Shown: piece after piece, positions 8,730 through 57,549 of the stretch | Numbering within the stretch: the stretch's first letter is position 1 | Layout of the letters: each line of letters starts with the position of its first letter | Assembly (NCBI GenBank): GCA_947458265.1 | Contig: CANGYF010000010.1 | Location: 62,001 to 126,000, forward strand | DNA length: 64,000 nt | Direction of reading: 5' to 3' | Source: Betaproteobacteria bacterium | Lineage (GTDB): Bacteria > Pseudomonadota > Gammaproteobacteria > Burkholderiales > CAIKXV01 | Made by a program: the position numbers and the translations under genes | Notes under the pieces: generated by a model | Databases searched by the model: none | What the model was told of the DNA's origin: nothing | What the model saw: only the letters and a program-made list of their open reading frames with translations

Positions 8730-10025
8730 ATGCCTGCACCGGCGCATACCAGGCAGGCCGTCCAGGAGCGGCTCGCAACGTCGCAACTGGCGGCCTACAG
8801 CCTGTTCAGCGTGCCGCTGCTGATGACTGCGCTGCCGATCAACATCCTCCTGCCAGCCTTCTACAACGAGCGCACCGGCCTGTCGCTGTCTGTCATCGGG
8901 ATCGTGTTCTTCCTCACGCGGCTGGTCGATGCGGTCGCCGACCCACTGCTCGGGGCCTGGGTCGATGCGCAGAAGCAGCGCGCCTCCTACCTGCCGCCGG
9001 TGCTGATCGGCGCGCCGGTGCTTGCACTGGGCTTCGCGCTGCTGCTGCAGCCGCCGGCTGGCCTGGGCGAGGCGGCGGCCGCAGGCTGGCTCACCCTCAC
9101 GCTGGTGGCTGCCTATGTCGGCTACTCGCTGGCGATCGTCGCCTACCAGGCCTGGGGATCGGAACTCGCCCATGACGATGCCGGGCGTGCACGCATCACC
9201 GGTGCACGCGAGGGCGCAGGCCTGGTCGGCGTGCTGGTCGGGGCGGTGCTGCCCCAGGTGCTCGGGATGGCCGCGCTGGTCGCGGTGTTCATCGCCGCGC
9301 TGCTGCTGTCGCTGCTGCTGCTCGCCCGCTTCGCGCCGCGGCCTGCGCGCCGGGACGCGCCGCCAGACGGCCTGCGCGGCAATCCGTTCTCGGCCTTCGT
9401 CGTGCCGCTGGCCAGCAGCCGGTTCCGCTGGCTGCTCCTGGTGTTCGCGCTCAATGCGATCGCGCCGTCGATCACCGCGACGGTGTTCCAGTTCTTCGTC
9501 GCCGACCGGCTCGGTCTGGCTGATAAGGTGCCCGCCTTCCTCGCGCTGTACTTCATCGCTGGCGCGGCGAGCATGCCGCTGTGGATGAAGCTTGCCACCC
9601 GTTTCAGCCTGCACGTGGTCTGGCTGGTGGGGATGGTGGCCGCGGTGGCTGCCTTCGTCTGGGCGTACTGGCTCGATGCCGGCGCGCTGTGGGGCTTCGC
9701 GGCGATCTGCGTGCTGTCCGGCTTCGCTTTCGGCGCAGACCTCGCGCTGCCGCCGGCGCTGCTTGCGCGCGTGGTCGATGCCAACGGCCATGGCGGCCAG
9801 CGCGAAGGCGCCTACTTCGGCCTGTGGAACTTCGTGAACAAGCTGACCCTGGCCATCGCCGGCGGCATCGCCCTGCCGCTGCTGGAAGGGCTGGGCTATG
9901 TCGCCGGTTCGCAGGACGCCACGGCGCTGTCCGCGCTCGCGTTCACCTATGCCATCGTCCCCTGTGCGCTCAAGCTCGTCGCCGCCGCGCTGCTGTGGTC
10001 GGCCTGGCGCAATGCCCGTTTCTGA
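8730..10025 (+). CDS. MFS transporter of the GPH (sugar/cation symporter-like) family
   Basis: A 431-residue inner-membrane protein with about 12 hydrophobic segments. LTRLVDAVADPLLGAWVDA (about 61-79) is the conserved loop of the glycoside-pentoside-hexuronide:cation symporter family. The start is the ATG at 8730, one base after the preceding stop; longer readings upstream run through the neighbouring gene. Family members import sugars or similar solutes, but relatives in Cfa/DUF1365 clusters have no known substrate. Its place inside the operon suggests export or flipping of a lipid-related compound, which is speculative. Confidence 0.82.
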   Translation: MPAPAHTRQAVQERLATSQLAAYSLFSVPLLMTALPINILLPAFYNERTGLSLSVIGIVFFLTRLVDAVADPLLGAWVDAQKQRASYLPPVLIGAPVLALGFALLLQPPAGLGEAAAAGWLTLTLVAAYVGYSLAIVAYQAWGSELAHDDAGRARITGAREGAGLVGVLVGAVLPQVLGMAALVAVFIAALLLSLLLLARFAPRPARRDAPPDGLRGNPFSAFVVPLASSRFRWLLLVFALNAIAPSITATVFQFFVADRLGLADKVPAFLALYFIAGAASMPLWMKLATRFSLHVVWLVGMVAAVAAFVWAYWLDAGALWGFAAICVLSGFAFGADLALPPALLARVVDANGHGGQREGAYFGLWNFVNKLTLAIAGGIALPLLEGLGYVAGSQDATALSALAFTYAIVPCALKLVAAALLWSAWRNARF

Positions 10026-10086
10026 GTGTCCGGCCCTGGTCGGCCGTTCCAGCCCGCCTGTTCCTGATCCTTCCCGGAGGTCCCCG

Positions 10087-10656
10087 ATGAATGCAACCGT
10101 TTCCCGCTTCCTGCCCGCGCGCCTGGCGTACGGTCTGCGCGCACTGCTTGCCGCGGTGATGGCGGCGATGCTCGCAGGCTGTGCAGCGGTCGATCCGCAG
10201 GTCTATTCCGCCGAGAAGCCGATGCTCGACCTGAAGACCTACTTCAACGGCACGCTGGTCGGCCATGGCATGTTCCAGAGCCGATCTGGCAAGGTCGAGC
10301 GGCGCTTCGTGGTGACCATCGATGCGAAGTGGGAGGGCGACGTCGGTACCCTCGACGAGCGCTTCGAGTGGTCCGACGGCGAGAAGCAGCGCCGGGTATG
10401 GAAGATCACCCGGACCGGCGAGGGCACCTACACCGGTACCGCGGACGACGTGGTCGGCACCGCCCAGGGCCGAGCGGCGGGTAATGCGCTGTACTGGACC
10501 TACACGCTCGCACTGCCGGTGTCCGGCCGCACCTGGCATGTGCGCTTCGACGACTGGATGTACCTGATCGACGACAAGGTCATGCTCAACACCGCCGTGA
10601 TGAGCAAGTGGGGCATCCGCCTCGGCCAGGTCACGCTGAGCTTCACCCGCAAATGA
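10087..10656 (+). CDS. DUF3833 lipoprotein
   Basis: A 189-residue predicted lipoprotein with lipobox MLAGC ending at Cys33, then a soluble domain matching DUF3833. The mature part is rich in beta strands and includes LKTYFNGTLVGHGMFQSRSG, a lipocalin-like opening. The ATG at 10087 follows CGGAGG by about seven bases, a good ribosome site. It ends in an ATGA overlap with the DUF3429 gene. The family is a regular member of these clusters; carrying or binding modified lipids between membranes is a guess. Confidence 0.82.
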   Translation: MNATVSRFLPARLAYGLRALLAAVMAAMLAGCAAVDPQVYSAEKPMLDLKTYFNGTLVGHGMFQSRSGKVERRFVVTIDAKWEGDVGTLDERFEWSDGEKQRRVWKITRTGEGTYTGTADDVVGTAQGRAAGNALYWTYTLALPVSGRTWHVRFDDWMYLIDDKVMLNTAVMSKWGIRLGQVTLSFTRK

Positions 10657-13030: not shown

Positions 13031-13632
13031 GGTGCCTCCTTGGGGAACATGATCTGGTCTATGGCGTCGCAGATGCAGTGCAGCGCGAGGATGTGGACTT
13101 CCTGTACATGGGCGGTGCTGGCATGCGGCACGCGCAGTTCGATGTCGCCATCGCACAGGCTGCGCCCTATGCTGCCGCCATCGCGGCCGGTCAGTGCCAC
13201 GACCCGCATGCCGGCCGCGCGCGCTGCCTCGATGGCGGCCGCGACGTTCGGCGAATTGCCCGAGGTCGAGATCGCCAGCAGCACGTCGTCCTTTCGGCCC
13301 AGCGCCTGGACCTGCTTGGAGAACACCAGCCGATAGTCGTAGTCGTTCGCGATCGAGGTCAGGGTCGAGCTGTCGGTGGTGAGCGCGATCGCCGCGAGCG
13401 GCGGGCGCTCGCATTCGAAGCGGTTGAGCAGCTCGGCCGCGAAGTGCTGTGCATCGGCGGCCGAGCCGCCATTGCCGCAGGCCAGCACCCGCCCGCCGGC
13501 CACCAGCGTCGCGGCCATCATGCGCCCGGCTGCCAGGATCGGTGCGGCCAGCATGGGGGCGACTTCCCGCTTCAGGCGGGCACTTTCCTCGAATCGTGCG
13601 GTGATGCGATCGAGCAGTTCATTGGGTTCCAT
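13027..13632 (-). CDS. diaA: SIS-domain protein, DiaA/GmhA family
   Basis: A 201-residue sugar-isomerase (SIS) protein. CGNGGSAADAQHFAAEL (about 52-68) and ISTSGNSPNV (about 112-121) are the phosphosugar-binding loops. HILALHCICDAID near the C-terminus matches both GmhA and DiaA. The position between yraN and a yraP-like gene favours DiaA, which binds DnaA and promotes replication initiation; sedoheptulose-7-phosphate isomerase (GmhA) activity cannot be excluded, since the glutamate and histidine of the isomerase site appear present. Confidence 0.82.
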   Translation of the reverse strand: MEPNELLDRITARFEESARLKREVAPMLAAPILAAGRMMAATLVAGGRVLACGNGGSAADAQHFAAELLNRFECERPPLAAIALTTDSSTLTSIANDYDYRLVFSKQVQALGRKDDVLLAISTSGNSPNVAAAIEAARAAGMRVVALTGRDGGSIGRSLCDGDIELRVPHASTAHVQEVHILALHCICDAIDQIMFPKEAP

Positions 13633-13702
13633 CCACCCATTCTACGACGCAACACGCGGGCAGGCATCGTCGCGGCCGGTTGCGCCAGGACGGTCCCGCG
13701 CC

Positions 13703-13729
13703 GTCGGTCAGGCGCTGTCGGTCAGGCGC
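13703..13729. repeat. 14-bp tandem repeat at the yraN stop codon
   Basis: GTCGGTCAGGCGC occurs at 13703-13715 and again at 13717-13729, separated by one T (14-bp unit). The second copy contains the yraN stop (TCA at 13722-13724 on the plus strand), so the end of the gene appears duplicated. Confidence 0.75.
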
Positions 13730-14084
13730 CGGGCTGGAAGGCATCGCGGATCCACTCGAGCTGCCCGGCCTCGATCAGCACGACATCGAAGCGGCAGGGC
13801 TGCGCTGTGCAATGCATCACCTGGCGGTAGAACTCCGCTGCCCGGGCCAGCCGCAGCTGCTTGGCCGGGGTGATGCTCGCTGCGGCGCCGCCGAATGCCG
13901 ACGATGCACGACGGCGTACCTCGACGAACACCAGCGTGCCATCGGTGTCGCGGGCGACGATGTCGAGCTCGCCGGCACGGCAGCGCCAGTTACGCGACAG
14001 CACGCGCAGGCCTGCACGGGCCAGATGCGCGGCTGCGAGAGCCTCTCCTTCCGCGCCATCGGCTTGCCGGGTGGTACGCGCCAT
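13722..14084 (-). CDS. yraN: YraN/UPF0102 nuclease-fold protein
   Basis: A 120-residue member of UPF0102 with a restriction-endonuclease-like fold. CRAGELDIVARD (about 34-45) and FVEVRRR (about 52-58) carry the Glu/Asp and E-x-R/K positions of the predicted metal site. The family's exact role is unsettled; Holliday-junction or recombination nucleases are suggested by fold. It lies 11 bp after lpoA and about 90 bp before the SIS gene, in the conserved order for this locus. Confidence 0.92.
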   Translation of the reverse strand: MARTTRQADGAEGEALAAAHLARAGLRVLSRNWRCRAGELDIVARDTDGTLVFVEVRRRASSAFGGAAASITPAKQLRLARAAEFYRQVMHCTAQPCRFDVVLIEAGQLEWIRDAFQPGA

Positions 14085-14095
14085 CGGAAGGGTCG

Positions 14096-15289
14096 CTACC
14101 TGCGTTCGGTGCCCGGCACCAGCTGCCCCTGCCAGACCTGCGCCGATACCGGCTCGCGCACCAGCCAGTTGCCGCGCTCGAGCGTGATGCGGCCGGTGAC
14201 GCCGTCTAGCGACAGCCCGGGCAGGATGCCGCGTTCGACCGCGAGTTCGGCCAGCCGGTAGGCGTCTATGCCCAGCGCGTACAGGCGTTCGTTCTCGGGC
14301 GCGAGCGCCGGCTGGCTGCGCGGGAACACCATCACCGCGGCATGGTCCGGCTCGAGCAGCCAGGGCATGTCGAGCAGGCGGGTGCCGTTGAGGTCAGTGT
14401 TGGCATTCGGGTCGATCGGGCCGGACCACAGCTGTGAGGTGGCATAGGTGGGCAACTGCTTGTCCAGGAAAGGGCGCACGGCTCGTGCCGTCGGCAGGTC
14501 GGCGGCGATGAACACCATGTCCGCGCCCTGGCTGGCGGTAGTTGCGCGCATCCGGTTCATCGCGGCGAGGTCGGTGACGGCTGCGTGCTGGCCGGCGATG
14601 GTGCCACCGCCCTCGGAGAAGGCTTCGATGAAGGCCTGCTGCAGGCGGCGCGAGAATGCGTTGGGCTGGGTCAGGACCAGCGCGCGGCGAAGCCCGTCGC
14701 GCAGGGCAAGCCGCGCGACCTGGCGCGCTTCCGCCTCCGTCGACAGGCCGAACAGGAACAGGTTGCGCGCCAGGCGGGGATCGCCTTCCACGATGTTCAG
14801 CGCCAGCGTCGGCACGATCACCGGTGCGCTCGACGCCAGGCCGTTGGCGAGCGCGGTGACCTGGTCGCGGATCAGCGGACCGACAATCGCCTGCGCATCG
14901 GCAGCGAGGGCATGGTTGTAGCTGGCGATCACGTCGTTCGGCTGGTCGCCGATCGGGATGAAGCGCAGGTCGATACGCGCCTTCGCCGCAGACTGCGCCC
15001 ATGCGGCTGCGATGCCGTTGCGTACGTGGGTGGCCGCGCGTCCGAACACCGGGGATTCCAGCGGCAGCAGCACGGCGACGATACGCGCACCTGCCGCCGC
15101 GGGTGCGGCTGCGGCCTGCAGGGGTGCACTGGTTGCCGGGGCACGGGCGCCCTGCGCAACCGGCGACGGCTGGGCGGCGACAATCCCGATCCCGGCCAAT
15201 GAAAGCGCAGCAGCGGACAGCACGCTGGTCACCAGGGTGCGGATGCCGCAGACTTGGCGGCGCAACGCGAGGACTACGAGATGCAGCAT
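14096..15289 (-). CDS. lpoA: LpoA-like penicillin-binding-protein activator
   Basis: A 397-residue periplasmic protein with the C-terminal periplasmic-binding-protein fold of LpoA/LppC. The N-terminus is basic, then hydrophobic (about 20-40), with no lipobox cysteine, so it looks secreted rather than lipid-anchored, unlike E. coli LpoA. IVAVLLPLESPVFGRAATHV near residue 70 starts the binding fold. The family stimulates PBP1a-type transpeptidases. The N-terminal TPR-like half of E. coli LpoA is absent, as in other short betaproteobacterial versions. The start codon overlaps the divergent rsmI start; a later start within the signal sequence is possible. Confidence 0.85.
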   Translation of the reverse strand: MLHLVVLALRRQVCGIRTLVTSVLSAAALSLAGIGIVAAQPSPVAQGARAPATSAPLQAAAAPAAAGARIVAVLLPLESPVFGRAATHVRNGIAAAWAQSAAKARIDLRFIPIGDQPNDVIASYNHALAADAQAIVGPLIRDQVTALANGLASSAPVIVPTLALNIVEGDPRLARNLFLFGLSTEAEARQVARLALRDGLRRALVLTQPNAFSRRLQQAFIEAFSEGGGTIAGQHAAVTDLAAMNRMRATTASQGADMVFIAADLPTARAVRPFLDKQLPTYATSQLWSGPIDPNANTDLNGTRLLDMPWLLEPDHAAVMVFPRSQPALAPENERLYALGIDAYRLAELAVERGILPGLSLDGVTGRITLERGNWLVREPVSAQVWQGQLVPGTERR

Positions 15290-47878: not shown

Positions 47879-48931
47879 ATGGACAGCACCCATTCCCGGA
47901 TCGCAGGACCGGTGTCAGCGCCCGTACGCGCCGTCGCGTCGGCTGCACTGTTGCTGGGCCCGGCCCTGCTCCTTGCCCCGGCGACCACCGTGGCGCAACC
48001 AGCCTCTGGCCGGGCGGCGGCGGCGGCCGAACGGTACCCCGACCGGCCGATCCGGCTGCTGGTGGGCTTCGCGCCCGGCGGTGGTGCCGACACCGCGGCA
48101 CGGCCGGTGGCGCAGCGGCTGGCCGAGGCGATCGGCCAGCAGGTGGTGGTCGACAACCGTCCCGGCAGCAGCGGCAACGTCGCCGCCGAGATCGTCGCCC
48201 GTGCCAGCCCGGACGGCTACAGCGTGCTGTTCGGCACCATCGCGAACTTCGCGATCAACCCGATGATCTTCGAACGGCTGACCTACGACCCGGTGCGCGA
48301 TTTCGCCCCGGTGACGCTCGCCGCCGCGCCGGTGAACGTGGTGGTGGTGCATCCGTCCGTGCAGGCCTCGACCATGAAGGAGTTTATCGCCCTGGTCCGC
48401 GCGAAGCCGAACACCATCAACTATGGCAGCTCAGGCATTGGCGGCACCGGCCACCTCGCCGGTGAACTGATGTCGCTGATGGGCGGGCTGGTGATGACCC
48501 ATGTGCCGTACAAGGGCGGGGCGCCGGCGGTGGCCGACCTGATCGGGGGCAATATCCCGATGGTGATCACGGTGGTGCCGGGCGCGATGCCGCAGGTCCG
48601 GGCCAACCGTGCCCGCCTGCTCGCGGTCACCACCGGCAAGCGTTCCGCGCTGCTGCCCGATACCCCGACCATCGCGGAAAGCGGCCTGCCCGGCTTCGAG
48701 GCCAACAACTGGTATGGGGTCGTCGTGCCGGCCAAGACGCCGCAGTCGATCGTCACCCGCCTGAACACCGAACTGGTCAAGGTGCTCAACTCGCCCGGGC
48801 TGCGCGAGACCTACGCGAACCAGGGTATCGAGGCGATCCCGAGCACGCCGGCCGAGTTCACCGCCTACATCCGGTCCGAGATCGTGAAGTGGGGGAAGAT
48901 CGTGAAGGCGGCGGGCATCAAGGCCGACTGA
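47879..48931 (+). CDS. Bug/TctC-family periplasmic solute-binding protein
   Basis: A 350-residue extracytoplasmic receptor with a signal peptide (hydrophobic run about 20-40) and the family opening YPDRPIRLLVGFAPGGGADT. VVVDNRPGSSGNVAAEIVA and GELMSLMGGLVMTHVPYKG are typical. Such receptors, greatly expanded in Bordetella and relatives, bind carboxylates; no TctAB membrane genes lie nearby, so its partner is unknown. Adjacency to acnA makes a citrate-like ligand tempting but unproven. Its end overlaps the convergent hydrolase gene by 14 bp. Confidence 0.93.
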   Translation: MDSTHSRIAGPVSAPVRAVASAALLLGPALLLAPATTVAQPASGRAAAAAERYPDRPIRLLVGFAPGGGADTAARPVAQRLAEAIGQQVVVDNRPGSSGNVAAEIVARASPDGYSVLFGTIANFAINPMIFERLTYDPVRDFAPVTLAAAPVNVVVVHPSVQASTMKEFIALVRAKPNTINYGSSGIGGTGHLAGELMSLMGGLVMTHVPYKGGAPAVADLIGGNIPMVITVVPGAMPQVRANRARLLAVTTGKRSALLPDTPTIAESGLPGFEANNWYGVVVPAKTPQSIVTRLNTELVKVLNSPGLRETYANQGIEAIPSTPAEFTAYIRSEIVKWGKIVKAAGIKAD

Positions 48932-49865
48932 CGGCCAGGAAGCGCTCGTACTCGGCCAGGAAGGACACGCCGACCTCGAAGTGCGGCAGTGCCCCGGTCT
49001 GGAACACGGTGAAGCTCCAGTTGGGCCGGCCGCGGACGGTGTCGATGCCGCGATAGTCGACGAAATCGCCGCGCACGCCATGGGACATCCAGACCGGCAT
49101 CGCCAGCTTCTCGTACAGCGCGTTGATGTCGGTGCTGAACAGGCAGGCGGTGAGGAAGCTGATCGGCGCATGCCAGGCCCCTGGTTGCCGGGTGGTGATC
49201 ACGTCGTAGGCCCACATGCCTTCGTCGATGTCCTTGCCGCCCCAGGTGCGCTGCAGGAAGTAGCGGATGACTCCTGGCCGGGTCAGCCAGCGGAACACCG
49301 GCGCGCCGATCCCCGGGCGGCTCAACACTCGGTACAGGGCATCCACCTTGCGCGATCCGCCGGCAGGCGCATACCGCCGGCGGGCGCCGCTGAAGCCGGT
49401 CGGGCTGACCAGGGCCAGGCTGCGGAAGGCCCGGGGATCTTCGGTAGCGGCACGTGCCAGGAACTCGGATGCCAGCGACAGCGCCAGCGCATCGACCGGC
49501 ACGGGTCCATGGTCGCGGTGGACCTGCGCGACCACCGCATGCAGCGCGTCCGTCATCTGCCTGGGCGTGTACTCCCCCGGTCGACGCTCGGAAAATCCGT
49601 ATCCGGGCAGGTCGAGGCTGTAGACCGGGCGCGAGGCAGCGAAGTGCTCGTGCAGCGGCCGCACTTCGTAGGCAGAGGCGGCCGCGTTGACGCTGTGCAC
49701 CAGCAGCATCGGCGCCGCCAGGGACGCAGCGCCCGGCGCCGGCCCCGCCCGGTAGCAGCAGACCTGTCCGGTCGGAGTGTCGATCAGCAGCCGTTCGCCG
49801 CTGACGGCTGGCGGCAGCAAGGGACTGTCGTCCCCGGCTGCGAGCGGCTTCCGCGGGTCATTCAC
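48918..49865 (-). CDS. alpha/beta hydrolase with non-canonical nucleophile elbow
   Basis: A 315-residue alpha/beta-hydrolase fold protein. [19 protein letters not shown] is the usual loop before the catalytic region. The expected G-x-S-x-G elbow reads A-L-S-L-A ([13 protein letters not shown], about 125-137), keeping the serine but replacing both glycines. The likely acid is the Asp in VRGDFVD, and the His is in LPHFEVG near the C-terminus. It may be an active esterase or hydrolase with altered geometry. The substrate is unknown. It overlaps yacG by eight bases. Confidence 0.85.
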
Positions 49866-50064
49866 CCGATTCGTCCATCGGCTTGACCACGTCGGGTACC
49901 CGGTAGTCCTCGCTCGCCCAGGCGCCGAGGTCGATCAACCGGCAGCGCTCTGAACAGAAAGGCCGGAAGCGGTTGGACGTGCTCCATTCCACGGTCGTGC
50001 CGCATTTCGGGCACGCGACCTTTCGGATCCTGACAATGTCGGGGCGGGTGGGCTCGGCAGCCAT
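49858..50064 (-). CDS. yacG: DNA gyrase inhibitor/zinc-binding protein YacG
   Basis: A 68-residue zinc protein. CPKCG (18-22) and CSERC (37-41) supply the four zinc ligands, and [14 protein letters not shown] is the conserved tail. E. coli YacG binds GyrB and blocks DNA binding. In most relatives it directly follows coaE-zapD; here those genes are 6.7 kb away, on the far side of the cytochrome operon. Confidence 0.94.
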
Positions 50065-50364
50065 GGTTGTTGCAGTGCGGGGCGGCGCAACGGTTCGAGG
50101 CGATGCATCGAGTGTACCCGTATGCGCCGGGCCGGGCGGTGCGGTGCCGAGCGGGTGCTCGGTGCGACCTGCGTGTCACGTATCTGCGCAGCTTGTACAG
50201 CACAAAAGAGTCAAGTACCCCAGCTTCCGGACGATAACCAACGACCAATGCACAATTGTGACAACCCTTCCCTGACGGAAGTGAAGGAGGCGACTGCTTT
50301 CGGACTGAAAGCGGTGGGCGTCGTCTTGCGCTAGCAGGACGCAACCGGGAGGCGAGGAAATCGG
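50065..50364. promoter_or_regulatory. divergent region between yacG and the cytochrome operon
   Basis: A 300-bp non-coding stretch that must hold promoters for both directions. From about 50190 it is AT-richer. ACAATTGT (50252-50259) and TTGTGACAA (50256-50264) are overlapping dyads, and small hairpins follow (CTTCC-ctga-GGAAG type near 50269, CTTTC-gga-GAAAG type near 50298). No firm promoter call is possible; GGGAGGCGAGGA just before ATG 50365 is the ribosome site. Confidence 0.5.
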
Positions 50365-52458
50365 ATGCGAACGGAACGGCGGGTGATCCGGCTGGGCCTC
50401 GGGGCGAAGTTCACCCTGACGGTGCTGACCATCCTCGCCTGCACGATGGCGGCCAACACGCTGTATTCGGTGTACGCGTCGACCAGGTTCCACGAGAAGC
50501 AACTGGTCGAGCGTGGGCGTGCGCTCGGGCGCCTGATCTCTCTCGTGAGCCCCGAGGCCATCCTGGGCTTCGACTTCCTGCTGCTCAACGATTACACCCG
50601 CCAGGTGTCGGCGCAGCCCGACGTCGTCTATGGCGTGATCCTCAGCCCGAAGGGTTCGCCGCTGAGCGCCTACATCGACGACTCCGATCCCTTCGTGCGG
50701 GCGCGGATCAATGCGACCGGGTCGACCGACATCACCCGCCTGCTGCAGGAGCTCGACCACCAGCCGGAGCTGATCCGGCTCGAGTTCCCGATCGTGCACA
50801 ACGACGTCGAGCTCGGGCGCTTCCTGGTCGGCATGAGCAAGCAGTCGCTGCATGCCGAATCGCGGCGCCGGCTCGCGTTCCAGCTCATCGCGCTGACGGC
50901 GCTCGTGATGTTCCTGTGCGCGGCGATCTACCTCGCCTTCAGGGCCAACGTGCTGTTCCCCATCCAGGCGCTGATATCGGCCTCGCGCAACGTCGGTCGC
51001 GGCCAGTACACGCGGGTCGACGTCAAGTCCGAGGACGAGCTCGGCCAGCTGGCGCAGGCGTTCAATGCGATGGCCGAGGAGGTCAGGCGCGAGCAGGCCA
51101 AGCTTCACCGGCAGGCCAACTTCGACACCCTGACCGGGCTGCCGAACCGGCTGATGGCGCTGGACCGCATCAACCAGGCGATCAACCGTGCGCGTCGGAC
51201 CTCGCAGCGCTTCGCGCTGTTCTTCATCGACCTGGACAACTTCAAGAGCGTCAACGACTCGCTCGGCCATGCGGTCGGCGACGAACTGCTGGTTGCCACC
51301 GGCATGCGCGTGCAGGCCATTCTGCGAGATGCCGATACCGTCGCGCGGCTGGGCGGTGACGAGTTCCTGGTGCTGGTGCCCGACGTGGTCAACGAACTGC
51401 AGGCCGAGGAGATCGCCGAGCGGCTGGTACGCACGATTTCGCAGCCGCAGACCCTCAGTGGCAGGAAGGTGGTCGCACGCTGCAGCATCGGCATCGTCGT
51501 GTTCCCGGACAACGGCGAGACCGCGGCCGCGCTGATGGCCAATGCCGACAACGCGATGTACCAGGCGAAGGCCAGCGGCCACGGCTCGGCGATCTTCTTC
51601 ACCGAGGACATGAACACCCGCCTGCATCAACGCATGCAGATGGAGCAGGACCTGAACCAGGCGCTGGAGCTCGGGCAGCTTGCCTTGCACTTCCAGCCGA
51701 TCTACAACGCGGCCGCGCGGTGCCACCGAGGCGCGGAAGTGCTGCTGCGCTGGCAGCACCCGGAGCGAGGCAGCGTCGGCCCTGCGGAGTTCATCCCGCT
51801 GGCGGAGGCTACCGGCCAGATTGTCGCCATCGGCGACTGGGTGCTCGAGCAGGCCTGCCGCAAGTGGTCGCAATGGCACCGTGCCGGACTCGGTCCGGAT
51901 TTCCTCGCCATCAATATCTCGCGCGTGCAGTTCAGGAAGCGGTTCGCCCGGCGGCTGGGCGAACTGATGACCACCTACGAGATTCCGCCACACGCCCTGG
52001 AGCTGGAGATCACCGAAAGCGTGCTGCTCGATGACCACCACCACGTGGCCGAGGAGTTGAACAGTCTGCGCGCGATCGGCGTCACGCTTTCCCTGGACGA
52101 TTTCGGAACCGGCTATTCGTCGCTGAGCTACCTCAAGCGTTTCCGTTTCGACGTGCTGAAGATCGACCGCAGCTTCGTGTCCGGCCTGCCGGACAAGCCG
52201 GAGGACGTGCTCCTGGTCAAGGCCATCCTGGCGATGGCCAAGGGACTGGACCTGAAGGTCGTTGCCGAGGGCGTGGAGTCGGACGACCAGCTGCAGTTCC
52301 TGTCCGCCCAGGGCTGCGACTATGTGCAGGGATACCTGCTGGCGAGCCCGATGGACGAGACGGCATACGGCAGATACCTTGAATCGCTGATGGTGCGGGC
52401 CGAGCCGGTGGCCCTGGTTGCGACCCGCAACCGCCGCAGGGCCGGGACCTCTGGCTGA
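50365..52458 (+). CDS. membrane GGDEF-EAL c-di-GMP enzyme
   Basis: A 697-residue inner-membrane signalling protein: membrane helix (about 13-34), a periplasmic sensor (about 35-170), a second helix (about 172-193), HAMP (about 194-246), GGDEF (about 252-415) and EAL (about 430-680). GGDEF is intact (330-334), with RDAD five residues before it as an I-site. The EAL signature reads EVL (458-460); the phosphodiesterase residues in ITESVLL, DDFGTGYSSLSYLK, KIDRSF and VVAEGVES are kept, so both activities are possible. It is the first gene of a five-gene operon, which suggests its periplasmic domain reads the compound handled by the following proteins. Confidence 0.93.
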   Translation: MRTERRVIRLGLGAKFTLTVLTILACTMAANTLYSVYASTRFHEKQLVERGRALGRLISLVSPEAILGFDFLLLNDYTRQVSAQPDVVYGVILSPKGSPLSAYIDDSDPFVRARINATGSTDITRLLQELDHQPELIRLEFPIVHNDVELGRFLVGMSKQSLHAESRRRLAFQLIALTALVMFLCAAIYLAFRANVLFPIQALISASRNVGRGQYTRVDVKSEDELGQLAQAFNAMAEEVRREQAKLHRQANFDTLTGLPNRLMALDRINQAINRARRTSQRFALFFIDLDNFKSVNDSLGHAVGDELLVATGMRVQAILRDADTVARLGGDEFLVLVPDVVNELQAEEIAERLVRTISQPQTLSGRKVVARCSIGIVVFPDNGETAAALMANADNAMYQAKASGHGSAIFFTEDMNTRLHQRMQMEQDLNQALELGQLALHFQPIYNAAARCHRGAEVLLRWQHPERGSVGPAEFIPLAEATGQIVAIGDWVLEQACRKWSQWHRAGLGPDFLAINISRVQFRKRFARRLGELMTTYEIPPHALELEITESVLLDDHHHVAEELNSLRAIGVTLSLDDFGTGYSSLSYLKRFRFDVLKIDRSFVSGLPDKPEDVLLVKAILAMAKGLDLKVVAEGVESDDQLQFLSAQGCDYVQGYLLASPMDETAYGRYLESLMVRAEPVALVATRNRRRAGTSG

Positions 52459-52496
52459 GCCGAAAGGCCGATGCGGCCTTTCAGGGGAATGGCAGG

Positions 52497-53396
52497 ATGG
52501 ATGATCGATCTGCAAGGAACATGGACCGCAGGCGGGTACTGACCCGGGCGCTGCCGTTCGTCTGCCTCGCCGGCTCCGCGTTGGTGGCGCCGGCGCTGCA
52601 GGCGGCAGAAGAGCCGCTGGTGATGGGGATCTTCCCGCGCAACAAGCCCGCCGAGACGACCACGATGTACACGCCGCTGGCGAACCTCCTGAGCGAGCGG
52701 CTCGGCAGGAAAGTCATTCTGGCGACGGCCCGGGATTTCGAGTCGTTCTCGCGCTCGGTGCAGGAAGGTCGCTACGACATCGTCTTCTACAACCAGTTCC
52801 AGTACATCCAGTCGTCGAGATCCTACGTCGTGATTGCGCACAACGAGGAGTTCGGCCGCAGCGCGGTGGCGGGTGCGCTGTATGTGCGCAAGGACAGTGG
52901 CATCACGCAGGTGTCCCAGCTGCGCGGACGCACGATCATCTTCGGCGGTGGCCGCGACGCCATGCTCAGCTACATTGCGCCGCGCTTCCTGTTGATGCAG
53001 GCAGGGTTGAACGAAGAGGATTTCAAGTCCGAGTTTGCGGTGAATCCACCCAATGCGGTCGTGGCGCTGTCACTGAAGCAGGCCGACGCGGCCGGCGGTG
53101 GCGAAATACTCATAGACTTGGCAGCAGTCAAGAAGACCATCAATACGGACGACATCCGTATCCTTGCGTCGACAGAATCGTTGCTGTTCCTGCCCTGGGC
53201 GGTGAAGCGCACGATGCCGGCCAGACTGCGCGGTGCCATCCAGTCCGTCATGGTCGATCTCGACGGCAGCGAAGCTGGCCGCGCCGTGCTGAAGTCGGCG
53301 CTGACCACGGGAATACGTAAGGCGCAGGAAAAAGATTACGATCCGCATCGTCGGATGATCAACGCGGTGTTCGGCAAGGGAGCACCACCCAGATAG
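52497..53396 (+). CDS. PhnD-like periplasmic oxyanion-binding protein
   Basis: A 299-residue periplasmic-binding-protein-type II fold of the PhnD (phosphate/phosphonate/phosphite) family. The signal peptide contains DRRRVLTRAL, a twin-arginine-like motif, so Tat export is possible. MGIFPRNKPAETTTMYTPLA, YDIVFYNQFQYIQ and LRGRTIIFGGG match the family. No ATPase or permease gene is near, so it probably works as a sensor or redox-system partner rather than in ABC uptake. Start ATG 52497; ATG 52521 is equally plausible. It is 38 bp after the GGDEF-EAL gene and 15 bp before the first cytochrome. Confidence 0.85.
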   Translation: MDDRSARNMDRRRVLTRALPFVCLAGSALVAPALQAAEEPLVMGIFPRNKPAETTTMYTPLANLLSERLGRKVILATARDFESFSRSVQEGRYDIVFYNQFQYIQSSRSYVVIAHNEEFGRSAVAGALYVRKDSGITQVSQLRGRTIIFGGGRDAMLSYIAPRFLLMQAGLNEEDFKSEFAVNPPNAVVALSLKQADAAGGGEILIDLAAVKKTINTDDIRILASTESLLFLPWAVKRTMPARLRGAIQSVMVDLDGSEAGRAVLKSALTTGIRKAQEKDYDPHRRMINAVFGKGAPPR

Positions 53397-53411
53397 CAAT
53401 AGCGACAGTCC

Positions 53412-53981
53412 ATGGACCAGCCGTCTCCGCCAACAGAACCCAGGGAATCGCGAGCGACGGCGGTCCGGAATCGGCTGCTTCGCTACAAGGCACCGGTACT
53501 GGTCGCACTGATGGCCGCCTTCGTCCTCTGGGCCCACGTCGGGTCCGGCGTGCCGGTGTTCCGCTCCGACTCGCCGGCCGAGCCCGGCTGGGAACGATTC
53601 CGCGCCGACTACGACATCGATCATTTCGGGGGCGACGGCCAGTTCGCGCGCGCGGTGCGCAATGGCTACAACCTTGTCCACTACACCGAGCGGCATGCGC
53701 CGCGCTTCACCCGCGCTGCCGTCGGTACGGCGGTCACCTCATGTGCCGGTTGCCATTCGGTGGAAGACCTGGCGTACAGCTTCGTCAATTCGGATCGTGT
53801 CGATCCGAAGCTCGGCGTCCGCATGTCGTTCGAGGACCGCGTGCGCTGGTGCTATGCGAATTCGCTGAACGGCTTCGTGCCGACGATCTACGATCCGGCG
53901 GTGCGTGACATCCGCCTGCTTGCGCGCGCAGTGGCGCGCCACCTCGGTCTGGGCGAAGGGGCCAGAAGGGACGGAGCCTAG
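53412..53981 (+). CDS. membrane-anchored monoheme c-type cytochrome, SoxA/TsdA-like
   Basis: A 189-residue protein with an uncleaved N-terminal helix (about 28-45) and one periplasmic heme domain. CAGCH (111-115) binds the heme. VRWCYANSLNGF (144-155) contains Cys147, placed like the second heme ligand Cys in the SoxA/TsdA fold, where His/Cys ligation marks the thiosulfate-active heme. The spacing (32 residues) is shorter than in TsdA. It is followed by the diheme cytochrome after 2 bp. Function in sulfur-compound oxidation or electron transfer is inferred. Confidence 0.78.
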   Translation: MDQPSPPTEPRESRATAVRNRLLRYKAPVLVALMAAFVLWAHVGSGVPVFRSDSPAEPGWERFRADYDIDHFGGDGQFARAVRNGYNLVHYTERHAPRFTRAAVGTAVTSCAGCHSVEDLAYSFVNSDRVDPKLGVRMSFEDRVRWCYANSLNGFVPTIYDPAVRDIRLLARAVARHLGLGEGARRDGA

Positions 53982-53983
53982 CC

Positions 53984-55087
53984 ATGTCGACGATGTCCTG
54001 GCGCATATTGAAAGTGGTCGCGCTTGTGCTGGTGCTCGGCGGCTTCTATGGGCTTGCCGTGTACAAGCACGCCGAGCGCGAGGCGATCCGGCAGGCGCCG
54101 GTAGTGTTGACCGAGGCCTGCGCCGAGAAGCTGTCGCGCTACGGACTGGCCGCCGGTCCGGTTTACCGGTCGCCGTACATGCTCCAGCGCACGGGGCTCG
54201 CGCCGGCGATGGCTGGCTATTCGGAAGAGGACGTGCGCGCGATCCAGCGCGGCTGCAACATCATCGACGACACCCAGGGCCGGCTGGCGAGCGACAAGGC
54301 GAGCGAGCGCTGGAACGCGCCGCGCTTCATCCGCGGTACGCACGCCAGCTGCAACCAGTGCCATCAGGGCGTGGGCGACAAGCAGGACGCGGACGGCAAC
54401 CGCCTCAAGGGTTCGCTCAGCCTGGGTGCTTCGTGGGTCATGGCGGACATGTACGACCGGTTCACCGGGCTGCTGCTGCCGTTCGAACTGCGCCAGATGC
54501 AGTGCTACATCAACTCGTCCAACGGTTACAAGCCGAACATCGCCGACGACCTGATCCGGGACGTGACGGCATACACGCGTTTCCTGTCCGCGGCGCTAGG
54601 ACTCCAGATCGGCACCAGCTACGAAGAGCAGGGTGTAGACGAGATACCGGCGTCGTTCACCGGCAAGCAGGGCGACGATTACATTCGCGGCGAGGCGCTG
54701 TACAAGGAGAAGTGCCAGCACTGCCATGGACCCCAGGGCCACGGCGTGGAAGTCGCCGGTCGCCTGATCGGGCCGGCGGTGGCGGGACCCAACGCCTGGA
54801 ACATGCAGTCGCGCAACTACTTCTACTACGTGGCGACGATCCTGCCCGGGTTCATCTGCCGCAACATGCCGCTCGGTGCGGAGAACACGCTGAGCAACCA
54901 GGACTGCCGCGACATCGCGTACTTCATCAGTAACCTTCCGCGTCCTGCAGGTGATAAGCAAGGACCGCTGGTAGCGCTGCAGCAGCAGGCGCTGATGCGC
55001 ATCATGCCGCCCCTGCTGCGCTGGAGCGAAGCCGTGATGGAACGGACGGCGCAACCGGCGCCGCAAGCACCGGTCGCCGCGCGATGA
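53984..55087 (+). CDS. membrane-anchored diheme cytochrome c, thiosulfate-dehydrogenase (TsdA)-like
   Basis: A 367-residue protein with an N-terminal anchor (about 9-26) and two heme domains. The first has CNQCH (123-127), then Cys174 in RQMQCYINSSNG, 47 residues later, where TsdA has its His/Cys-ligated active heme. The second has CQHCH (244-248), and RNMPLG (Met295) supplies a likely Met ligand; the run to FISNLPRP closely follows the TsdA C-terminus. TsdA joins two thiosulfates into tetrathionate. Substrate identity is inferred from these motifs only. It overlaps the SulP gene by four bases, so the two are translated together. Confidence 0.8.
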   Translation: MSTMSWRILKVVALVLVLGGFYGLAVYKHAEREAIRQAPVVLTEACAEKLSRYGLAAGPVYRSPYMLQRTGLAPAMAGYSEEDVRAIQRGCNIIDDTQGRLASDKASERWNAPRFIRGTHASCNQCHQGVGDKQDADGNRLKGSLSLGASWVMADMYDRFTGLLLPFELRQMQCYINSSNGYKPNIADDLIRDVTAYTRFLSAALGLQIGTSYEEQGVDEIPASFTGKQGDDYIRGEALYKEKCQHCHGPQGHGVEVAGRLIGPAVAGPNAWNMQSRNYFYYVATILPGFICRNMPLGAENTLSNQDCRDIAYFISNLPRPAGDKQGPLVALQQQALMRIMPPLLRWSEAVMERTAQPAPQAPVAAR

Positions 55088-56697
55088 GTTCGCTGGCGGC
55101 TATCGAGCGCCAGCGGCAGGCGTTCGTCCGGGACTGGCCGCAGACCAGCGGGAACCTCCTGGTCGGCTTGACACTGGCACTGGTCACGCTGCCGCAGGCA
55201 GTGGCCTTTTCCGTCACGCTTGCCGGTGTACCGCCGCACTTCGGTATCTATGCCGCGATCTGGGGCGTGCTCTTCTGCGCGATGCTGAACCCGTCGAGGG
55301 TGTTCCATGGCGGTCCGAACACGGCGATGTCGGCGACTATCGGCGTCACCCTGCTGCCGGTCGCCCCGCCGTTCGGCGCCGAGTACATGGGCTATGCGCT
55401 GACGCTGTGCCTGCTGTGCGGCCTGATCCAGATGATGTTCTACGTGATCCGCCCGCTGGGCCGGATGCTCGACCTGGTCAGCGAGCCGGTGATCAACGGC
55501 ATGATCTGCGGCATCGGCCTGTTCCTCATCTTCAAGTCGCTGACTACCTTCGGTGGGCTGCCGGTGAACACCGAGGTCGAGTGGCCGCTGTGGATCGCCT
55601 GGCAGTCGTTGCTTGCTGTGCTCGAGATCGGCAACCTGCATGCGATCCAGATCGGGCTCGTCACGCTGGTTACCTGCTTCGCCGTGCAGCAGGTGCCACG
55701 CATGCGCAACTGGGCGATCCTGGTCGGCATCGCGGCGGGCACGCTGTATTCGCAGTACATCGAAGCGAACCTGGGCACGCAGGTGAGCCTGATCGAGAAG
55801 ATCGGCAACCTGTCTTCGATCGGGTTCGTGCTGCCATCGATACCGCTGTTCAGCCAGGAGGCCATGCCGGACATCATCGCCATACTGCCGGGTGCGGTGA
55901 CGCTGGCCCTGCTCGGCCTGTTCCAGACCGTTGCGGCGATGCGTCGCATGAATCGCAAGGCGGGCGGCTACACCGACAGCCGCAAGGCGATCTTCTCCGA
56001 CGCAACCTCGAACTGCCTGCTGCCGTTCCTGTCCTCGATGCCTACCTGCGCCTCGTTCAATCGCATGTGGCTGGTACACCGCCTCGGCGGCCACAGCCGC
56101 CTCGCGATCGTCAGCTCCGCCATCTGGCTGCTCGTGCTGGTGCTGTTCCTCGCGCAGGTCATCGCGGTGATCCCGATGCCCGCGATGGCTGCGGTGATCA
56201 TGCTGCTCGGTGCCAACATGATCAACTGGGAGGACATCAAGCCGCACTTCAAGGACCGGCGCGAGGCGATCGTATTCACCGTGTCCTTCCTGTCCGTCCT
56301 GTTCCTCGACCTGTTCGGCGCGGTCATCGTCGGTTCGGTGCTCGCGGTCGCCTATGCGAAGTGGGAGCAGGCGCACCCGAACATCAGCCTTGCCGGCAAC
56401 GTACTGAAGATCCGCGGCAACCTGTACTACGGGTCACTGCCGGTGATCGAGGCGATGTACCACCGCGCGATCGCGAACGAAGGCAGCGTGGTGATCGATT
56501 TCTCCGAATGCTTCTACATCGACCAGGAAGGCATCCGCTGGCTGAGGGCGGCCAAGGAAGCGCAGCGCGCCGCGCTCGCGGACCGTCGTCGCAACGATGA
56601 GCGGCGTGGTTTCGAGCGCCGTGCCGCCGTGGACGGCACGCGCAGGTCCGGTCGCCGGCGCGGCAAGAAGGATCGCCGGATCCGGTCCGAGTTCTGA
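55084..56697 (+). CDS. SulP-family anion transporter with truncated STAS and Arg-rich tail
   Basis: A 537-residue inner-membrane protein with about 11-12 hydrophobic segments. PQAVAFSVTLAGVPPHFGIY (about 37-56) and HGGPNTAMSATIG are SulP signatures, so sulfate, bicarbonate or another anion is the likely cargo. The C-terminal STAS domain starts normally (about 435) and keeps VVIDFSECFYIDQEGIRWL, but stops after the following helix and continues as about 37 residues with RRRNDERRGFERR, rich in arginine and lysine. The tail could contact membrane, nucleic acid or c-di-GMP. It is the last gene of the operon. Confidence 0.86.
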   Translation: MSSLAAIERQRQAFVRDWPQTSGNLLVGLTLALVTLPQAVAFSVTLAGVPPHFGIYAAIWGVLFCAMLNPSRVFHGGPNTAMSATIGVTLLPVAPPFGAEYMGYALTLCLLCGLIQMMFYVIRPLGRMLDLVSEPVINGMICGIGLFLIFKSLTTFGGLPVNTEVEWPLWIAWQSLLAVLEIGNLHAIQIGLVTLVTCFAVQQVPRMRNWAILVGIAAGTLYSQYIEANLGTQVSLIEKIGNLSSIGFVLPSIPLFSQEAMPDIIAILPGAVTLALLGLFQTVAAMRRMNRKAGGYTDSRKAIFSDATSNCLLPFLSSMPTCASFNRMWLVHRLGGHSRLAIVSSAIWLLVLVLFLAQVIAVIPMPAMAAVIMLLGANMINWEDIKPHFKDRREAIVFTVSFLSVLFLDLFGAVIVGSVLAVAYAKWEQAHPNISLAGNVLKIRGNLYYGSLPVIEAMYHRAIANEGSVVIDFSECFYIDQEGIRWLRAAKEAQRAALADRRRNDERRGFERRAAVDGTRRSGRRRGKKDRRIRSEF

Positions 56698-56748
56698 CCG
56701 CAGAGCGCAACCGCTGGTTGCAGCCCTCCTGCCTGCATGCGAGGCGGG

Positions 56749-57549
56749 TTACAGGTTGCAGAAGGTGAGGTCGAACGGAATGTCGGCCTCGTATACCTTC
56801 GGCCGGTCGCTGCCGGGCACCTGCTGCGTGAAGCGGATGTTCAGCATGTAGCGGTTGGCGCTGACCTCGGGCACGCACGGGAATTCGCGCGCGACGCGCA
56901 CCCGTACCAGTTGCACGGCCCGGCCGGCGAGCATCTGCTGGAACACGCCCTGGGCGGCGATGCGCTGCGACGATTTGCCGCTGTCGCGCAGGATGCGCAG
57001 TACGATGGTCAGGCTGTCGCGCAGCGGCAGGAATGGCGCCATCCACTGGTTGAGGTCGGCACGGCGTTCCTCGATCGGACGGTGCTGCCAATAATGGTAG
57101 GTCGGCAGGTCGAACTCGCACACGCCACCCGGGATGTTCGAGCGCTGGCGGATGCTCATCAGCCATTCGTTGTCGCGTACGTCCTGCCCGATCTTTCCGG
57201 TCAGGTTGTAGAGGCTGCCGGCAGCATGGTCGATATCGCGCAGTACCGCGTCCAGGGCATCGACCGAGATCTGCGGATTGCTGCGCAGTGCCTCGAGCGA
57301 ATGCTTCTGCCGCTCGAGCTCCTGCAGCAGGTCGGACTTCAGGTCGGCCCGGCTCGCCACCTCGATGATCTCGAACAGCGTGACCAGCGCAGTGTGGTGC
57401 TCCAGCGGATGGTCGCGCGAGACGAAATAGGCGAGCTTGTCGTAGAGGTCTTCCAGCCTGAGCAGCGTTCGCGTGCGCTCATTCAGTGGAAACTCGTAGT
57501 CGATCACGGTAGCTGCGGTCTGCTCGGGTAGCGTGTGCGAATCGAACAT
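56749..57549 (-). CDS. zapD: cell division protein ZapD
   Basis: A 266-residue cytosolic FtsZ-bundling protein. It opens with YEFPLNERTRTLLRLEDLYDK, the family hallmark, and is helical to about residue 150, then forms a beta domain ending YEADIPFDLTFCNL. It would bind the FtsZ C-terminal peptide seen in ftsZ of this window. It follows coaE by about 60 bp. Its usual neighbour yacG is displaced. Confidence 0.95.
   Translation of the reverse strand: MFDSHTLPEQTAATVIDYEFPLNERTRTLLRLEDLYDKLAYFVSRDHPLEHHTALVTLFEIIEVASRADLKSDLLQELERQKHSLEALRSNPQISVDALDAVLRDIDHAAGSLYNLTGKIGQDVRDNEWLMSIRQRSNIPGGVCEFDLPTYHYWQHRPIEERRADLNQWMAPFLPLRDSLTIVLRILRDSGKSSQRIAAQGVFQQMLAGRAVQLVRVRVAREFPCVPEVSANRYMLNIRFTQQVPGSDRPKVYEADIPFDLTFCNL

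Follow-up and report, generated by a model that had tools for sequence, protein, structure and literature searches.

TsdA, characterized in Allochromatium vinosum and Campylobacter jejuni, combines a SoxA-type domain that carries a His/Cys haem with a cytochrome c domain that carries a His/Met haem. Cys123 is the ligand of the first haem, and Arg109, Arg119, Ser127 and the main chain of Gly221 contact thiosulfate (PMC4423706). The C. jejuni enzyme has Asn at the position of Lys208 (PMC6879331). Control of sulfur oxidation by c-di-GMP has been reported from one case, which is light driven: in Qipengyuania flava, a blue-light LOV protein, a diguanylate cyclase and a PilZ c-di-GMP receptor that stimulates TsdA form the control system (PMC10267684).

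Periplasmic sensing of oxyanions by PhnD-like proteins is known from AioX and ArrX (PMC5908839), and PhnD-like domains report thiosulfate or tetrathionate in the thiosulfate sensor ThsS and in TtrS (PMC5408782). In the AioXSR/ArrXSR, TtrSR and ThsSR systems the receptor is paired with or fused to a membrane signalling protein, a histidine kinase, and lies with it beside the redox enzyme that it serves. For c-di-GMP networks, a review states that SBP_bac_3 is the sole PBP-clan family to have been studied (PMC8846402).

The window, a 64,000-nucleotide stretch of contig CANGYF010000010.1 from a Betaproteobacteria bacterium, contains a cassette of five genes, here called A to E (Table 1). As in Q. 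flava, c-di-GMP is tied to a TsdA-type enzyme; there a PilZ receptor acts on TsdA in response to blue light, whereas the present c-di-GMP enzyme lies, together with a ligand receptor, in the presumed operon of a TsdA relative. The preliminary description knew of no system of this composition, and literature searches for the combination likewise found none. Our reading, which we hold tentatively and at a little less than even confidence, is that the cassette is a sulfur-oxyanion redox and transport core joined to a periplasmic ligand-to-c-di-GMP sensor.

Organization and distribution of the cassette

All five genes have the same orientation, and their open reading frames bear out the spacing first described for 50365-56697: from A to D the intergenic gaps measure 38, 15 and 2 bp, and D and E overlap by 4 bp. 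From this spacing and its conservation the genes are probably co-transcribed. No sigma-70-like promoter was found, and an Rfam search of the cassette region gave no match. A TctC-type substrate-binding gene beside the site (47879-48931, + strand) belongs to a type often met near the cassette in the Burkholderiales.

Table 1 Features of the cassette and its borders in the window
Feature	Position	Strand	Description
Gene A	50365-52458	+	697 aa; HAMP-GGDEF-EAL, inner membrane, periplasmic sensor domain
Gene B	52497-53396	+	299 aa; exported PhnD/PtxB-like solute-binding protein, PF12974 Phosphonate-bd
Gene C	53412-53981	+	189 aa; membrane-anchored monohaem cytochrome, SoxA/TsdA fold
Gene D	53984-55087	+	367 aa; membrane-anchored dihaem TsdA-like cytochrome
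Gene E	55084-56697	+	537 aa; SulP anion transporter, truncated STAS, Arg-rich DRR-repeat C-terminal tail
SulP Arg-rich tail	56583..56694	+	about residues 500-537, DRRRNDERRGFERR...GRRRGKKDRR
Left cassette boundary	50065..50364		300 bp separating yacG (- strand) from gene A
Right cassette boundary	56698..56748		51 bp separating the SulP stop from zapD (- strand)
yacG	about 49858-50064	-	short gene, identity read by eye
zapD	56749-57549	-	right neighbour of the cassette

Scanning one genome per species (84,980 species) with an alignment of gene C, we found 33 loci in Beta- and Gammaproteobacteria, a count from which divergent members may be missing because the scan relies on short seed patterns. 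Carriers include Aromatoleum, Azoarcus, Marinobacterium, Motiliproteus and MAGs of the Acidiferrobacteraceae; Marinobacterium rhizophilum and Aromatoleum toluclasticum are carriers that exist in culture. C-D-E is contiguous in every locus with a long enough contig, and A and B adjoin it except in four gammaproteobacterial MAGs (L090-L093): in L090 a divergent PF12974 gene adjoins C-D-E, and in L091-L093 neither A nor B lies beside it. Most betaproteobacterial MAGs have the order A-B, the other lineages B-A, and the outer neighbours of the cassette are not conserved. A separate search of 399 Burkholderiales genomes found strong C homologues in 15, from three genera, which carry the complete A-B-C-D-E block wherever the contig is long enough, in settings that differ between the genera. 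Two seemingly new D loci in a class-wide search were loci already in the collection. Chance adjacency of the five genes is ruled out by the 33 loci: the five families are neighbours across several taxonomic families and not in this genome alone.

The cassette in the window sits between zapD and yacG. In one relative in which no cassette was found (G005) and in another that carries it elsewhere (G001), zapD, yacG and abh are directly consecutive, yacG having been matched there with a query one base out of frame; in a third, which also carries the cassette elsewhere (G008), no more than about 300 bp separates zapD from abh. Relatives with no cassette at this position have yacG next to zapD, so the block has been acquired, relocated or lost as one piece. 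No relatives were found in a scan of viral contigs with gene C, and a plasmid search with gene D returned only distant TsdA-like matches (<60% identity). The block is a real, transferable and self-contained unit, made of a redox and transport core, C-D-E, and a detachable sensor, A-B. The earlier idea of a single five-gene device holds in that A to E travel together, but has to be amended in that A-B is an add-on to the core, absent from four lineages and variable in order.

Several further observations concern individual loci. The coaE-zapD-yacG neighbourhood, intact in relatives, is split by the cassette in the window. Two tandem PhnD-like genes lie between the GGDEF-EAL gene and the cytochromes in L066 (3629-5508) and L079 (8052-9880), which suggests receptor duplication, and in L066 and L075 the cassette is followed closely by another, divergent SulP gene (9155-10570 and 13438-14844, respectively, both - strand). 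The SulP frame of L091 is broken at about 12300 by an apparent short duplication, whereas that of its relative L092 is open. Two environmental MAG records titled Bordetella parapertussis (L064 and L071) carry the cassette; these names look unreliable.

Cytochrome D and its relation to TsdA

D is assigned by Pfam to Cytochrom_C and gave no match to SoxA-TsdA_cyt-c (PF21342) at E<=1; its best solved relative is TsdA (4wqc, E 5e-20). It shares the two-domain, two-haem architecture of TsdA: two CxxCH motifs, the predicted haem-1 ligand Cys174, the haem-2 ligand Met295 and the His equivalents are present in 34/34 homologues. The equivalents of TsdA Arg119 (Arg170) and Ser127 (Ser178) are found in 34 and 33 of the 34, respectively, and the Lys208 position is Asn, as in C. 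jejuni TsdA and our TsdA comparison set.

Other features set D apart. Unlike TsdA it has one N-terminal hydrophobic anchor, an N-terminal extension with two invariant cysteines (Cys46 and Cys91) and two further invariant cysteines, Cys292 and Cys308, around the haem-2 Met. Where TsdA has Arg109, 14 residues before the haem Cys, no basic residue stands in register: Phe160 is found there in 34/34 homologues (the neighbouring Arg159 is kept in 29/34). Also absent is the GAG loop of the electron-transfer domain that lines the active site, in place of which all 34 homologues have Ser276-Arg277, whereas the TsdA comparison proteins have a GAG-like loop wherever the motif was found. In a two-domain tree D forms a clade (support 100/100) that falls outside the TsdA set and is set off by a long stem, and in the class-wide search its orthologues scored at least 634 bits and the next matches at most 92 bits. 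The AlphaFold model of D is poor (pLDDT 59). Because tested TsdA features are missing, D should not be called TsdA; its sequence places it in a distinct sister clade, as a predicted redox enzyme.

With neither the GAG loop nor a basic residue matching Arg109, and on so long a branch, D may have a substrate other than that of TsdA. The same core could then serve a different substrate: D and C would act on some other thiol, on sulfite or on an organosulfur compound, and the anion carried by SulP would be sulfite, sulfate or bicarbonate. Of the alternatives this survives best, and we regard it as unlikely though worth serious attention. The invariant Ser276-Arg277 pair, the four extra cysteines, the lost residues and the long stem speak for it, and so does the carrier Motiliproteus, which has no SoxY; on the other side stand the almost invariant equivalents of the haem Cys, Arg119 and Ser127 and the presence of SoxY in most carriers. 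Among the Burkholderiales, SoxY occurs in 13/15 carriers and 234/384 non-carriers (Fisher p 0.035, for genomes that are related and not independent). Of the additional carriers 14/15 have it; Motiliproteus alone does not, so the cassette can do without the Sox pathway. Since the carriers are related and Sox genes are common in the order, this co-occurrence is weak evidence, and supports only a general sulfur-oxidizing lifestyle of the carriers.

Cytochrome C, the SulP transporter and the sensor pair

C has one N-terminal hydrophobic anchor and falls into no confident Pfam family (SoxA-TsdA, E 0.18). Profile comparison matches C to D across the catalytic domain at 98% probability, and in a tree of this domain the two are sisters (90/97) on the TsdA side with SoxA elsewhere, although long branches make the exact placement uncertain. 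With an AlphaFold model of C (pLDDT 85), the top Foldseek matches in the PDB are TsdA and then SoxA (probability 1.00; best E 0.0045, a modest value). The CxxCH motif and Cys147 are invariant in 36/36 homologues, and the positions of TsdA Arg119, Arg109 and Ser127 vary. C is, as far as its sequence tells, a degenerate relative of the D catalytic domain that has lost most TsdA substrate residues. It shares with SoxA and SoxAX the fold and the Cys at the haem-ligand position, but is single-domain, membrane-anchored and sister to the D domain, with no soxX, soxY or soxZ adjoining. SoxA identity of C is rejected, as the tree places it with the D domain and away from SoxA. The preliminary description had noted CxxCH followed by a haem-ligand Cys in both cytochromes, and this Cys is indeed invariant in all 36 C and 34 D sequences. 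Its label 'SoxA/TsdA-like' needs narrowing: both cytochromes group beside TsdA and not with an unrelated family, but C is not SoxA by descent and D is a sister to TsdA.

E matches PF00916 (E 3e-46), and STAS over positions 12-66 of 106 only. Like other SulP transporters with STAS it has the transmembrane part and the start of this domain, but the domain ends at about half and is followed by an Arg-rich tail. Every E protein inspected from a locus that has A ends in the DRR-repeat tail, whereas the four E proteins from loci lacking A end at the truncated STAS. Two of these four loci were included in a tree and are sisters, so the correlation of the tail with A may reflect one evolutionary event and is a lead only. 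In its own genome, a DNA pattern for the DRR motif gave mostly out-of-context matches. That SulP is a c-di-GMP-controlled gate, its tail receiving local c-di-GMP or docking on A, is a speculative and improbable idea.

The way in which the tail tracks A also bears on a different view of the cytochromes, in which C and D would be a redox sensor and not an enzyme of energy metabolism, their redox state and ligand-bound B together setting A, with SulP as the regulated target. C has lost substrate residues yet keeps an invariant Cys-ligand position, as such a sensor might. The four lineages that keep C-D-E without A argue against it, because in them the core serves a purpose independent of this c-di-GMP enzyme, and we judge a purely sensory role improbable.

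Both c-di-GMP active sites of A are intact by sequence: its GGDEF domain with the RxxD I-site and the EAL catalytic glutamate are conserved in 25/25 homologues, and the remaining EAL motifs are preserved both in A of the window and in each of the eight homologues examined. B starts with a hydrophobic stretch (signal peptide) and matches PF12974 (E 2e-49); its best solved relative by sequence is PtxB, ArrX is the nearest among sensors, and AioX is also related. The oxyanion pocket of PhnD and AioX consists of Ser-Thr-Ser and a His (PMC5908839). These residues are not conserved in B, which has GG.DAM (Asp-Ala-Met) and Pro at the aligned positions, invariant within B. TtrS-like receptor domains that align to B through the pocket loop have an A-F-G-G type loop, unlike B; matches in the class-wide TtrS-family search were dominated by kinase domains. 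The predicted pocket of B thus resembles neither that of phosphonate or arsenic binders nor that of TtrS-like sensors, and B is expected to bind some anion in the cleft between its lobes.

As the preliminary description stated, B has no ABC partners: neither permease nor ATPase lies beside it in the window or belongs to the conserved block. With these partners missing and the pocket lost, phosphonate uptake is rejected. B might still be a receptor for phosphorus or arsenic anions, sensing phosphite, phosphonate or an arsenic oxyanion, and its link to sulfur a coincidence. Its kinship with PtxB and ArrX is in keeping with this, but the altered pocket, the TsdA-like and SulP partners of B and a neighbourhood in the window free of phosphonate and arsenic genes make it very improbable. 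Least credible of all is that A-B regulates general lifestyle and shares only its mobility with C-D-E, an idea compatible with the absence of A-B from four lineages and its swapped order but hard to square with the pair remaining next to C-D-E, in either order, across numerous chromosomal contexts in which every outer gene differs.

Proposed function and its meaning

Of these readings, a sulfur-oxyanion core with a c-di-GMP sensor is the best supported, and rests on homology. At its His/Cys haem D would form or cleave an S-S bond of a small sulfur oxyanion, possibly of the thiosulfate or polythionate type, and its His/Met haem would pass the electrons on. C would be a non-catalytic partner or a redox-sensing subunit, and SulP would be the inner-membrane carrier of the anionic substrate or product. 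B, with a periplasmic anion bound, could dock on the periplasmic domain of A and shift A towards making or degrading c-di-GMP, and the lifestyle signal of the cell would then register that the compound is present. We infer this link between sensing, redox chemistry and c-di-GMP. A-B resembles AioXSR/ArrXSR, TtrSR and ThsSR in its PhnD-like receptor and membrane signalling protein, and in their place beside a redox enzyme, but its output would be c-di-GMP turnover by a GGDEF-EAL protein and its pocket motif differs.

By sequence, the D family defines a sister clade of TsdA without prior characterization, and the pairing of a PF12974 receptor with a GGDEF-EAL protein, of which the literature searched contains no described case, would define a sensor type. 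If SulP were gated as outlined above, a periplasmic sulfur-anion signal would open or close the flux of anions to a new class of TsdA-like enzyme. In the cassette a c-di-GMP enzyme and a periplasmic receptor share one transferable block with two TsdA-related cytochromes and an anion transporter, which makes the direct reading of sulfur compounds into c-di-GMP a testable question.
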